The position numbers and the translations under genes were made by a program. A stretch of 7,653 nt of DNA from Candidatus Eiseniibacteriota bacterium (GTDB lineage: Bacteria > JAFGKV01): the NCBI GenBank assembly GCA_025453925.1, contig JALOPK010000156.1:1-7653 (forward strand). Reading direction: 5' to 3'. Within the stretch, counting starts at the first letter, position 1. Every line of letters starts with the position of its first letter. Of the stretch, positions 2,971 through 7,611 are shown one piece after another. The notes under the pieces are model-generated. The model saw only the letters and a list, made by a program, of their open reading frames with translations, ran no database searches and was not told the origin of the DNA.

Positions 2971-3054
2971 CCGCGCGCGCAAACATGGTGAATGCGTGGC
3001 GCCTCTCCGATGGGCCGGCCCGCCGGCGATCGGGTGGAACACTGGCGACCGGGC

Positions 3055-3062
3055 AAAGGAGG
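3055..3062 (+). promoter_or_regulatory. ribosome binding site that fixes the GTG start at 3069
   Basis: AAAGGAGG is a near-perfect Shine-Dalgarno sequence ending six bases before GTG at 3069. An ATG in the same frame at 2985 has no such site and would add 28 residues of poor composition, so 3069 is preferred. Confidence 0.8.
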
Positions 3063-3068
3063 CATACC

Positions 3069-4208
3069 GTGAACCTGATGGCGCTGACGCTCGACGAAGA
3101 GCAGTGGCTGGCGCCATACTTCTTCGATTCCGTGCTCCAGGAACAGCTCGCGGTGGAATTCCGCGCCGGAAGGCTCTCGGCTGACACCAACCGGATTCGG
3201 GGCCGTATCCGCCTCCCCGACGACGGCACGATTGGAGACCTTCCCTCTCCCACCTCGGCGCGGGGTCTCGAGGCGGTTGCCGCCGGCGCGAACATCGCTT
3301 CCCGAGGAGAACTGGCGTTGCTGGTGCTCAACGGGGGCATGGCGACGCGGTTCGGAGGCGGAGCCAAGGGAGTCGTGCCGGTGGATCATGGCGTGAGCTT
3401 CTTGGGGCTCAAGATCATCGGTGCGCGGTTGCTCTCTGAGCGCTATGGCGCGGGCGTCCCGGTGTATCTCATGAATAGCATGGCGACCCACGCCGCCACC
3501 CTCGCGCATCTCGAGGAGTACGCCTACTTCGGTCACGACCCGTCGCTGGTCCGCCCCTTCCTCCAGAATACCCTGCTGCGCCTGACGCCGGAGGGCGGCC
3601 TGTTTCGGCACGCGGACGGCCGGTTGTCTCCCTACGGTCCCGGACATGGCGATATCATCGAGGCGGTTGTTCGCAGCGTGCGGGCCGACATGGAGTCACG
3701 TGGCACACAAGTCGTTCAGGTCTCCAATGTCGACAATGCCCTGGCGACCCCCGACCCGCTCCTCGTGGGTGTGCACGTGCTCAGCGGCGTCGAGATGACC
3801 GTTGAGGTGGTTCCCAACACCGGCGCCGACACCGGCGGCGGCCCTCTTGTTGTCGGTGGCAGACTCCAGATCGTTGAGGGATTCCGCCTGCCCGGCAGCT
3901 TCGACATGTCGTCGCTCTCCGACTTCAACGCCAATACATTCTGCCTTGCGCCATCTTGCTTCGACCGGACGTATCCTCTGTCATGGTTCGTGGTCCACAA
4001 GACCGTGGATCATTGCGACGCGATTCAGCTCGAACGCCTTGCCGGTCAGCTCTCGGCGTTTGTTCCCACGGCGTATTGCCGGGTGCCGCGCGGCGGCGCG
4101 GGGTGCCGCTTCTCTCCGATCAAGGATCGGGAAACCCTGCAGGCGGAGAAAGGCCGGATCATCTCGACCCTGCGCACCCGCGGGTTCCTTCCGGAGTACC
4201 GCCCGTGA
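3069..4208 (+). CDS. UTP--glucose-1-phosphate uridylyltransferase family protein (UDPGP type)
   Basis: Proteins of this family transfer a nucleotide from UTP to a sugar-1-phosphate, giving UDP-glucose or a UDP-N-acetylhexosamine plus pyrophosphate, in the cytosol. The 379-aa product (GTG start) shows the family landmarks: the nucleotide loop LNGGMATRFGG (about 87-97) with the following AKG lysine near 100; MNSMATH (135-141); GPGHGD (190-195); SNVDN (219-223); a Gly-rich TGADTGGG (251-258) leading to a conserved Glu; FNANTFCL (286-293); and RFSPIKDRETL with a lysine near 352. This is the eukaryote-like UDPGP fold, not the GalU fold usual in bacteria. The sugar cannot be decided from sequence by eye. 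Its stop overlaps the start of the membrane enzyme gene downstream (GTGA, 4205-4208), so the two are very likely translated together and work in one pathway, probably envelope glycan or glycolipid synthesis. Confidence 0.85.
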   Translation: MNLMALTLDEEQWLAPYFFDSVLQEQLAVEFRAGRLSADTNRIRGRIRLPDDGTIGDLPSPTSARGLEAVAAGANIASRGELALLVLNGGMATRFGGGAKGVVPVDHGVSFLGLKIIGARLLSERYGAGVPVYLMNSMATHAATLAHLEEYAYFGHDPSLVRPFLQNTLLRLTPEGGLFRHADGRLSPYGPGHGDIIEAVVRSVRADMESRGTQVVQVSNVDNALATPDPLLVGVHVLSGVEMTVEVVPNTGADTGGGPLVVGGRLQIVEGFRLPGSFDMSSLSDFNANTFCLAPSCFDRTYPLSWFVVHKTVDHCDAIQLERLAGQLSAFVPTAYCRVPRGGAGCRFSPIKDRETLQAEKGRIISTLRTRGFLPEYRP

Positions 4209-6034
4209 CCGCCGGGGGAAGCCGACGAGACCGCTTCGCCGTCGGCTGGCTGCTGGGCCTCGCACTGGCTGGGGCAGAGACGATCCGGGGCGGCGTGCCG
4301 TCCGGCAACGTGGGCGTGAGCCTGGCGTTGATGACGCTGGGGCTCTACCCCTTGGGTCTGGGTCTCGCCGCGCTCATCCTGTCAACCCCGCCCCGGCTGA
4401 GACAGCCCGTCCACCTCATGGTCGCGCTAGGGGTGCTGGCCGCTTTCCCATGGATCACCCTCGTCATCTTCCCCAATCTCTCCATGGCGGCCATCGCGAA
4501 TCCCTCACACTGGCCTCGCCTCGCCGCTGTGCTCGGCGGCACCGTCCTCGCCGCCGCGGAGGTGGGACGGCGATTCCGAATCTGGGCCAGAGCGTGTCCA
4601 CCCGTCCCTGCGGCTGCGCTGCTCGGGGTCGCGGCACTGGCGGCGGGGGGAGCCATGTTGTCGGCCCGCCCCAAGGATCAGAGCGTTCCCCCGGCAACGA
4701 CCGCTTCGGGAGTCAACGTGCTCATGATCACTCTGGATACCGTGAGGGAGGACGCCTTGGGATCCTATGCCGGCGAGGACCGGGGCACCCCTACGATGGA
4801 CTCGTTGGCCGCCTCGGGGCTACGGATCGCACCGACGATCAGTTGCGCGCCATGGACGCTGGCCAGCATCAGCTCCATCATGACCGGCCTTCATCCGTCC
4901 ACCACTGGGGTTTTCACCGGCGAGAACCGATTGGCGGGAGGGATTCGGACATTGGCCGAATCCTTTGCCTCCCGAGGATACCACACCCACGCGATCGTAA
5001 CTAATACCTGGTTGAAGCCGGAGTTTGGGCTGGCCCAGGGGTTCGCGGTGTACGACCACCGGGCGCCCGTCAAGCCGGCGCCCGAGCTTTACTCGTTCAC
5101 CCTGTTTCGCCTATTCCGCCGTTGGGTAGGCGGACAGGCGGCCCCTCCGAGGGAATCGGCGACGGACGTGGTAGACCAGGCCCTCGCCTTCCTTGGATCC
5201 AGTCCGCCGCAGCCGTTCTTCCTGTGGCTTCACTTCAATGATGTCCATGACCCGTACGCTCCCCCGTTCCGCCACCTCCCGCGTGAACCGGGCTACCGGG
5301 GCTCCTTCCGCACCACATCGGGCCGCATAGTGCGGCTGCGCGAAGGGCACAGGATCTCAAGCGCTGACCGGCTCCGTATCCGTGCCCTCTATCGAGGCGA
5401 GGTCGAGTATCTGGACCGGAGTCTCGGGAGGCTGTGCGCAGGCCTGCGCACAGCACCGGTGGCCCCCACCATGGTAGCCCTCCTGGCGGACCATGGGGAG
5501 GAGTTCTGGGAGCATGAGAGCGTCGGGCATGGGCACTCACTGCACGGCGAGTTACTCAGAGTCCCGTTCATCGTGTCATACCCTGCGATGGTGGAGGCGG
5601 GGAGCGTGAGCAGCCGCCCCTGCGCGTTGGTCGACGTATGTCCGACGCTCATGCACCTTGCCGAACTTCCGGTCGGCCACACCCAAGGGTATGCCATCAC
5701 GGCGCCGGATCCGGCGCCCGAACGACCCATGATTGCCGAGGGGCTTGAGTTCTTCGGGGAACGGAAGGCCCTCACCATGGGCCGTTGGAAGCTGATCGTG
5801 GATCCGGATTCCGGCCGAAGCTGGCTCTTCGATAGGGCAACGGATCCCTTGGAGCAGTTCGACGTGAGCCGGGAGCACAGCGCGACGCTCGCCGCACTCC
5901 AGGACACGCTCAGCGCGCATCTGGCTCGCTTCCGGGCTGATGCCGATCGCCTGAGTCTGGCGCGCGACGCCTCGGCAATGGTGCTCAGTTCCGAGCTCCG
6001 CGAGCAGCTCCGCGCCCAGGGATACCTCGAGTAG
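4205..6034 (+). CDS. membrane-anchored sulfatase/alkaline-phosphatase-fold hydrolase or transferase
   Basis: Product of 609 aa. The GTG start overlaps the previous stop and has GGAG eight bases upstream. The frame is open back to 3956, but that part shadows the upstream gene. About five hydrophobic segments (near 11-27, 35-60, 68-90, 104-119, 134-153) alternate with basic loops (RR at 7-8, RLR at 64-66, RRFR at 122-125). By the positive-inside rule this puts the C-terminal domain outside the membrane. That domain (about 170-530) has ITLDTVREDALGSYA with metal ligand Asp178, HDPY (348-351), ADHGEEF with Asp429/His430, GHGH (441-444), and the common family ending LRAQGYLE. Aligning on SSIMTG, the residue at the Cys/Ser nucleophile position of CxPxR sulfatases is Thr218; the nearby Cys214 is four residues too early. 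A Thr nucleophile fits phosphotransferases such as LtaS and EptA better than a formylglycine sulfatase. The substrate is unknown; an envelope lipid or glycan is inferred. Confidence 0.85.
   Translation: MTAGGSRRDRFAVGWLLGLALAGAETIRGGVPSGNVGVSLALMTLGLYPLGLGLAALILSTPPRLRQPVHLMVALGVLAAFPWITLVIFPNLSMAAIANPSHWPRLAAVLGGTVLAAAEVGRRFRIWARACPPVPAAALLGVAALAAGGAMLSARPKDQSVPPATTASGVNVLMITLDTVREDALGSYAGEDRGTPTMDSLAASGLRIAPTISCAPWTLASISSIMTGLHPSTTGVFTGENRLAGGIRTLAESFASRGYHTHAIVTNTWLKPEFGLAQGFAVYDHRAPVKPAPELYSFTLFRLFRRWVGGQAAPPRESATDVVDQALAFLGSSPPQPFFLWLHFNDVHDPYAPPFRHLPREPGYRGSFRTTSGRIVRLREGHRISSADRLRIRALYRGEVEYLDRSLGRLCAGLRTAPVAPTMVALLADHGEEFWEHESVGHGHSLHGELLRVPFIVSYPAMVEAGSVSSRPCALVDVCPTLMHLAELPVGHTQGYAITAPDPAPERPMIAEGLEFFGERKALTMGRWKLIVDPDSGRSWLFDRATDPLEQFDVSREHSATLAALQDTLSAHLARFRADADRLSLARDASAMVLSSELREQLRAQGYLE
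5431..5454. repeat. perfect 24-bp palindrome inside the membrane enzyme gene
   Basis: The half-site GCTGTGCGCAGG (5431-5442) is followed directly by its exact reverse complement (5443-5454), with no spacer and no mismatch. It encodes part of RLCAGLRTAP, in a linker-like stretch between conserved motifs. Such length is unlikely by chance even in GC-rich DNA. It could be a protein-binding site, a cruciform, or an RNA hairpin. Confidence 0.6.
5701..5718. repeat. perfect 18-bp palindrome inside the membrane enzyme gene
   Basis: GGCGCCGGA followed by TCCGGCGCC is an exact 18-bp palindrome, 246 bp downstream of the 24-bp one. It encodes the Pro/Ala-rich APDPAP loop. GC-rich codons make chance occurrence more likely here, so function is doubtful. 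Confidence 0.4.
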
Positions 6035-6685: not shown

Positions 6686-7180
6686 TCACTGTTCCACCGC
6701 GGCGTCCGTCGGTGCGCCCATCCGCTCCACCGTGTTCCTCAACCGTGCCCCGCACCGGGAGCAGAACTCCCACGTGGGATCAGCTCTCTTGCCGCACGCC
6801 GCGCATCGTGACCGGGCGTCGGACACATCGCCGCCGCAGTGCGGGCAGCAAGCGTAGTCCCTCCTGACTCGCGCGCCACAGGCGGGACAAAGCGGGAGTG
6901 CATCGTCATCCGAGTGTGCGAGCAGGTAGACCACGAGTCCGATCACCCACGTGAGCAAGACCAGAAGTGCCCAAAGGAAGGGCCGCGCGACACCGCGCTT
7001 CTGGGCGTTCCAGTACACCCACACGGCGGGGCCGACCCAGACAACGACTGGTATCATGGCGGCGACTCCGGCGAGCAGAGCCTTGGCGAGTGCGAGGGCC
7101 ACCATCGCGCAAAAGGCCCAGAACAGGATCATGATTGTCTTCTTCAGTGCGGAGTCGTGCTCATCGAATACGGGGCTCAT
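6686..7180 (-). CDS. membrane protein with C-terminal double zinc ribbon
   Basis: Product of 164 aa. Three hydrophobic segments (about 13-35, 38-58, 67-88) are followed by a soluble tail with four CxxC knuckles: CPAC (98-101), CPHC (112-115), CAAC (126-129) and CSRC (140-143). These pair into two zinc ribbons of the DZR type. The ATG at 7180 overlaps the stop of the upstream gene as ATGA, with GAGAGG about eight bases before it. A longer frame reaching 7456 only shadows the upstream gene. The segment WVYWNAQKRG followed by a helix resembles small PLDc_N-like membrane modules, a weak similarity. Such zinc ribbons usually bind protein or nucleic-acid partners and are rarely catalytic. Its place in a probable sigma/anti-sigma operon suggests a regulatory or envelope-stress role, which is inference. 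The exact function is not known. Confidence 0.75.
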   Translation of the reverse strand: MSPVFDEHDSALKKTIMILFWAFCAMVALALAKALLAGVAAMIPVVVWVGPAVWVYWNAQKRGVARPFLWALLVLLTWVIGLVVYLLAHSDDDALPLCPACGARVRRDYACCPHCGGDVSDARSRCAACGKRADPTWEFCSRCGARLRNTVERMGAPTDAAVEQ

Positions 7181-7611
7181 CGGATGATCCTCTCTTTGCT
7201 GTGGAAGGAATCCAGGAGAACCAGAGTGGGGGAGGTGAGCACTGCCAATAGGGCGGCGACTGCGAGCACGCCAAGCAGCGGTCTGGTGGTGACGGTCTCG
7301 AGCATCCGGGGTGCGAGCGGAAGGAGCCGCGACGCACACCAGACCGAAAGCGCAGCCAGCCCCAGCAGCATGATCCACCCGCCCGTGATCCACCCGAGTG
7401 GATGAGACCCCGGATTCGACCGAACCAGGGCGCACAGTTCCGCGGGTGTCGCGCATGACAGGGGCGGGGCCACGAGACTCTCGTTCAGCAACGTGAGGAG
7501 GAGGCGATACTGCCGAAACTCACCACCATTGGGGGAGGAACTCGGGGAGCATTCCGGCCCATCAAGGCTTTCGAGAATCTCCTCCGGACCGAGGTGATCG
7601 GCGTTCAGCAT
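7177..7611 (-). CDS. two-helix membrane protein, probable anti-sigma factor
   Basis: Product of 144 aa. The N-terminal 70 residues are soluble and open with HLGPEEILESLDG, the pattern commonly seen at the start of ECF anti-sigma factors. EFRQYRLLLTLLNESLVAPP then resembles their helix before the membrane. Two hydrophobic segments follow (about 73-95 and 111-133), ending in a basic tail KERIIR. The Hx3Cx2C zinc motif of ZAS-type anti-sigma factors is absent (the cysteines at 21, 53 and 60 do not fit). The ATG at 7611 has GAGG seven bases upstream and overlaps the preceding reading frame by 7 bp; its TGA overlaps the zinc-ribbon gene's ATG. This coupling, plus the sigma-like tail upstream, is the main support. 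It should sit in the inner membrane and hold a sigma factor inactive until a signal arrives. Otherwise a hypothetical membrane protein. Confidence 0.6.
   Translation of the reverse strand: MLNADHLGPEEILESLDGPECSPSSSPNGGEFRQYRLLLTLLNESLVAPPLSCATPAELCALVRSNPGSHPLGWITGGWIMLLGLAALSVWCASRLLPLAPRMLETVTTRPLLGVLAVAALLAVLTSPTLVLLDSFHSKERIIR

Follow-up and report, generated by a model that had tools for sequence, protein, structure and literature searches.

The window analyzed here, a stretch of 7,653 nucleotides, is contig C162 of its source genome (3.9 Mb, 82% complete). It carries a forward-strand gene at positions 4205..6034 for a sulfatase-fold membrane protein with a threonine, Thr218, at the position of the catalytic nucleophile. 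We are nearly certain that this protein is not a formylglycine sulfatase, because Thr218 occupies the nucleophile position, the CxPxR motif is missing, and the partner residues match those of the metal and substrate sites of EptA and MCR-1. It is probably an enzyme that uses this threonine to act on phosphoesters. The overall best explanation, which we consider moderately likely, is an inner-membrane enzyme of the alkaline phosphatase superfamily whose outer catalytic domain works as a Thr-based phosphotransferase. A specific role as an envelope-glycan phosphotransferase is put forward tentatively.

The frame is open, starts with GTG, and encodes 609 amino acids (stop codon included in the coordinates). 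In a Pfam scan the protein matches the Sulfatase profile PF00884 over residues 171–486 (E=9.4e-35; 120.8 bits against a cut-off of 25). Its closest named relatives are same-phylum orthologs with 58% and 44% identity, from metagenome-assembled genomes called Candidatus Fermentibacteria.

The active-site residues were read from an alignment of 90 diverse relatives, which was also the basis of the residue-matching profile and of the structure model. Thr218, His348, Asp429, His430, Gly431, and His442 are invariant across the 90 sequences, and Asp178 is conserved in at least 90% of them. The GHGH motif corresponds to G441-H442-G443-H444, and only its first histidine is invariant. The initial annotation, made from the letters of the window, had numbered the residues correctly (C214, W217, T218, A220, I222, D178, D429, H430, and GHGH).

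Local alignments against solved sulfatases place T218, A220, and I222 where formylglycine, proline, and arginine stand, respectively, as had been claimed. The same register is found in the profile alignment with AslA (S136-x-P138-x-R140) and with C109 of the lone CxPxR paralog of the source genome. The CxPxR motif is absent from the protein; the stretch reads T218-L-A220-S-I222 and lacks the [CS]-x-[PA]-x-R pattern required of SulfAtlas S1 (PMC5066984). Cys214 was also considered as the nucleophile. Its column is variable (A, P, Q, S, and others in relatives). We rejected it for this lack of conservation and because it is four residues N-terminal to the nucleophile position.

In the profile alignment, Thr218 (predicted nucleophile; 4856..4858, + strand, as for all residues here) shares its column with EptA T282, OpgE T263, OpgB T208, and YejM T302 of E. 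coli K-12. Asp178 (predicted metal ligand; 4736..4738) is aligned with Glu244 of EptA, Asp268 of YejM, and Asp94 of AslA. The Asp429-His430 pair (predicted metal ligands; 5489..5494) corresponds to D455-H456 in EptA and D422-H423 in OpgE; YejM instead has Gly450-Arg451. His348, predicted to be a substrate or leaving-group histidine (5246..5248), matches H367 of OpgE, H336 of OpgB, and H303 of AslA. The column of His442 (5528..5530) holds H468 in EptA. The CxPxR paralog of the source genome has a lysine there, which we infer to be equivalent to the conserved active-site Lys375 of AtsA. In MCR-1, none of the residues E246, T285, H395, H466, and H478 is dispensable, and a phosphoethanolamine–Thr intermediate has been proposed (PMC12658134). 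We infer that E244, T282, H456, and H468 of EptA are the positions matching these essential residues.

The nucleophile column was also read in 132 distinct relatives, which are spread over many phyla. It holds threonine in 123, cysteine in 8, and valine in 1. The full D/T/H/DH/H set is present in 112 of the 123 Thr rows. The S1-type active-site lysine is not present: position 442 is histidine in 112 of the Thr rows and in none of the Cys rows, which makes His442 a marker of the Thr type in place of the sulfatase lysine.

The AlphaFold2 model contains a catalytic domain of the alkaline phosphatase/sulfatase fold at residues 168–585 (4706..5959, + strand). The confidence score (predicted local distance difference test, pLDDT) is mostly above 90, and VIA-align Z scores to S1 sulfatases reach 40.7. 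In this model T218 opens the helix 218–227, D178 follows the strand 171–177, and D429 follows the strand 422–428. Such a placement is the expected arrangement for the alkaline phosphatase/sulfatase superfamily. The position of Thr218 in the catalytic site rests on the alignment and on this secondary structure, and both bear out the earlier proposal that Thr218, not Cys214, is at the nucleophile position.

The N-terminal part (residues 7–149; 4223..4651, + strand) is predicted to be a membrane domain of five helices (7–29, 35–59, 68–98, 100–130, and 136–149). The confidence of the model is low here, with a pLDDT of about 55–75, and the membrane part alone, folded from four orthologs, gave a mean of 55. 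Three of the helices are clearly hydrophobic (19-residue Kyte–Doolittle means of 1.95–2.43), and helices 1 and 4 are weakly so (1.19 and 1.13). Positive charges number 3 at the N-terminus, 2 in loop 2, and 4 in loop 4; the outer loops have 0 and 1. By the positive-inside rule, these charges fit a predicted topology with the N-terminus inside and the catalytic domain outside. The five segments with alternating basic loops described in the initial annotation are thus recovered, two of them weakly hydrophobic and all modeled at low confidence.

The gene lies directly downstream of a gene of the UTP–glucose-1-phosphate uridylyltransferase family (UDPGP; 2985..4208, + strand; Pfam UDPGP 2.3e-33), and the two overlap by 4 nt. 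The nearest solved relatives of the UDPGP product are eukaryotic UDP-glucose pyrophosphorylases (UGPases). We compared the source genome with L039 and L042, all three grouped as Fermentibacterota, and found the pair in each. The two genes share 4 nt in the window and 1 nt in L039, and a gap of 15 nt separates them in L042. Both the window and L039 also have a divergent ClpB gene on the upstream side. Haloarchaeal relatives without CxPxR sit within glycosyltransferase clusters. The UDPGP pairing and this haloarchaeal context both point to envelope glycans. Phospholipid synthase genes are present in all three Fermentibacterota genomes.

Some further genes were observed around the orthologs and paralogs. 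The syntenic ortholog in L042 (5995-7829, + strand; G002:C144) is broken by a frameshift, or by an error in sequencing, so that it reads as two frames, and the L042 genome has a second, intact relative (44% identity) elsewhere, with no UDPGP gene beside it. Next to the closest ortholog, in L039 (8755-10809, − strand), lies a gene for a sulfatase-fold protein that matches SGSH_C only and in which the Asp-His-Gly motif is missing (LAGRGMAFG). Judged by its sequence, it is probably a catalytically dead paralog. At the end of a contig of the source genome (G000:C33:8803-10082, − strand, partly in L137), a CDP-alcohol phosphatidyltransferase gene adjoins a truncated PF00884 paralog, of which the catalytic half only is present and the DHG motif is kept; this is a possible link of the Thr-type group to phospholipids. 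The window itself also encodes, at 6686-7456 (− strand), a membrane protein that has a double zinc ribbon at its C-terminus, and a related gene is found near the L042 ortholog.

In the mechanism that we propose, a divalent metal ion held by Asp178, Asp429, and His430 would activate Thr218. The threonine would attack a phosphodiester to give a covalent phospho-threonine-type intermediate, and His348 and His442 may stabilize the transferred group or the leaving alcohol. In the next step, this group would be transferred to an acceptor or, in a hydrolysis, released to water. Metal-activated attack with transfer is proposed because of the analogy with MCR-1 (PMC12658134) and with LtaS, which has a Thr nucleophile, a Mn2+ site, and five membrane helices followed by an extracellular catalytic domain (PMC4192460). 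The choice of transfer over hydrolysis is a guess, favored by the UDP-sugar gene and by the membrane domain. In the favored scheme, the phosphoglycerol or phosphoethanolamine head group of a phospholipid would be moved onto an envelope glycan or glycolipid, and the coupled UDPGP enzyme may provide the sugar of this acceptor in the form of a UDP-sugar. The claim of the initial annotation, that the protein is a phosphotransferase, phosphatase, or phosphodiesterase acting on an envelope substrate, is plausible by analogy.

Several observations weigh against the phosphotransferase reading. In the fold ranking (Foldseek and VIA-align), S1 sulfatases and phosphonate monoester hydrolases come top, with Z of about 34–41, and the solved proteins nearest to the catalytic domain in sequence are also S1 sulfatases. 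The UDPGP gene is the sole one found in the source genome. It may be a general source of UDP-glucose, since no match to GalU there passes the cut-off of that model, and the coupling may then be uninformative. A crude hydropathy count, which scores the query itself as 2, gives 0 to 8 hydrophobic segments ahead of the domain among the Thr-type relatives, and 0 or 1 in 60 of the 123. The five-span layout is therefore not a hallmark of the group, and because about half of these relatives lack a multi-span membrane domain, hydrolases suit them as well as transferases. In a quick tree the Thr rows lie on one side of a branch (support 80) and the Cys/Ser rows on one side of another (98); EptA, OpgE, OpgB, and YejM of E. 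coli fall outside both sets on very long branches. This result, suggestive only, separates the Thr-type set from these four proteins and does not show it to be closer to EptA/LtaS than to sulfatases. We found no assay of a close relative in the literature, and a search for Fermentibacteria with sulfatase gave nothing.

The same Thr/metal chemistry could serve a phosphodiesterase or phosphomonoesterase, in which the intermediate is released to water and phospho-groups are trimmed from extracellular lipids, glycans, or nucleotides. The relatives with 0–1 hydrophobic segments look soluble or singly anchored, and the near folds include phosphonate monoester hydrolases. The Phosphodiest profile PF01663 is matched above its cut-off (33.7 bits against 23), with the match confined to residues 172–237. 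However, biosynthesis accords better with five membrane spans and with a coupled gene for a UDP-sugar enzyme, and we regard a hydrolase as possible but unlikely. A regulator that is non-enzymatic or weakly active, like the five-span YejM/LapC/PbgA, would share the gross architecture and a fold match with Z of about 34. YejM has Gly450-Arg451 in place of Asp-His, whereas here every ligand is retained and invariant, so a regulator is very improbable.

A sulfotransferase adding sulfate to a glycan, a reading not raised in the initial annotation, has precedents in Agl30 (membrane) and Agl31 (soluble) of Halobacterium salinarum, the products of VNG1056C and VNG1057C. These members of the alkaline-phosphatase-like superfamily sulfate N-glycans, as shown by deletion and heterologous expression, and their best fold matches are 5G2U and 6HHM (PMC11980604). 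The same two structures rank 4th and 3rd, respectively, among the fold matches of our model, and the glycosyltransferase clusters around the haloarchaeal relatives would also suit a sulfotransferase. Nevertheless, the active site matches known phosphotransferases. Of the three Fermentibacterota genomes, only one has a clear APS (adenosine 5′-phosphosulfate) kinase, the source of 3′-phosphoadenosine 5′-phosphosulfate, and the match in the source genome, incomplete as it is, is marginal; this weakly disfavors sulfate transfer, which we judge improbable. A true sulfatase working without formylglycine would agree with the closest solved relatives being sulfatases and with the names that libraries would give. 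It is extremely improbable, as CxPxR is missing, threonine is not expected to yield formylglycine (PMC5066984), and the lysine of the paralog is replaced by an invariant histidine. The phosphotransferase reading thus remains the one that we prefer. The wider idea that the whole Thr-type sulfatase-fold branch is made up of transferases that modify glycans (phosphotransferases or even sulfotransferases, the reverse of sulfatases), and that a two-gene unit with a UDP-sugar synthase builds a modified envelope glycan here, is doubtful.

The warning that automatic annotation would mislead proved right, since haloarchaeal plasmid relatives without CxPxR are annotated as sulfatases. The point is not new, having been published in 2016: 30 of the 59 sequences in the PF00884 seed have threonine in place of Cys/Ser, and the profile has spread false annotations (SulfAtlas, PMC5066984). 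Thr-type PF00884 proteins are common and recognized as misnamed, and almost none has been studied. In the source genome, Thr-type PF00884 sequences number about 18, genes and fragments taken together, whereas a single CxPxR gene was found. A few of the fragments do not include the nucleophile region and were counted by their DHGEE motif. Such abundant proteins, still named sulfatases, can inflate metagenome claims of sulfated-polysaccharide use, and they can be told apart from sulfatases simply by the T218/H442 pair. Proof that any Thr-type protein adds phospho- or sulfo-groups to glycans would provide a function for a large uncharacterized set.

Two side observations concern these families. 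A tandem pair of haloarchaeal proteins annotated as "sulfatase" (L152 4986-7639, + strand) has threonine at the nucleophile position and lies amid a run of glycosyltransferase genes. Eight matches to the FGE-sulfatase domain (PF03781) occur on contigs C323, C251, C478, C345, C207, C405, and C456 of the source genome (G000), in which only one CxPxR sulfatase was found. Most of the eight are probably not formylglycine-generating enzymes.

The protein is nearest in fold and sequence score to the S1 formylglycine sulfatases and phosphonate monoester hydrolases (6HR5, 4UPL, 5G2U, 7STV, and 2VQR). It shares with them the metal site of Asp and Asp-His/Asn and the histidine of the HxP loop (H348). It differs in having Thr for Cys/Ser, no CxPxR, His442 for Lys, and an added N-terminal membrane domain. 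With EptA/MCR-1 it has in common the Thr nucleophile, the Asp-His metal pair, the second histidine (H442), and an N-terminal membrane domain followed by an outer catalytic domain. However, it has Asp178 where EptA has Glu, and the sequence relation is weak. The NCBIfam EptA model scores 14.9 bits on this protein, far below its cut-off of 561, and the N-terminal Pfam domain of EptA has no match at E<=1.

LtaS/LtaP share the Thr nucleophile, and their five helices followed by an extracellular domain resemble the layout that is predicted here at low confidence and that the charges fit. LtaS is absent among the matches listed in the sequence and fold searches; as these lists are filled by sulfatases, this does not exclude it. 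To our knowledge, the source organism is not known to make lipoteichoic acid. The LtaS-like topology of the initial annotation therefore survives as a five-helix analogy, and the label is not one of membership: the nearest proteins in sequence and fold are S1 sulfatases, the spans of relatives vary from 0 to 8, and the tree keeps the group apart from EptA/OpgE/OpgB/YejM.

YejM/LapC/PbgA combines five spans with a sulfatase-fold domain, has T302 on T218, and is a near fold (Z of about 33.5–34 in VIA-align). Its metal-site Asp-His is lost in YejM but intact here, and the N-terminal Pfam domain of YejM has no match in the protein at E<=1. The likeness to the archaeal Agl30/Agl31 lies in the superfamily, in an annotation close to that of sulfatases, and in the best fold neighbors, and there is no sign of sulfation for the protein described here. 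The Thr-type PF00884 proteins carry the same signature (WTxPSxAS..TG and SDHGEEFWEHG..HGH), and the gene is one of them. Nothing defining sets it apart from the others, and its five-helix N-terminal part is common to the orthologs of the phylum. As a single gene it is ordinary, a member of a known, widespread, and poorly characterized group.

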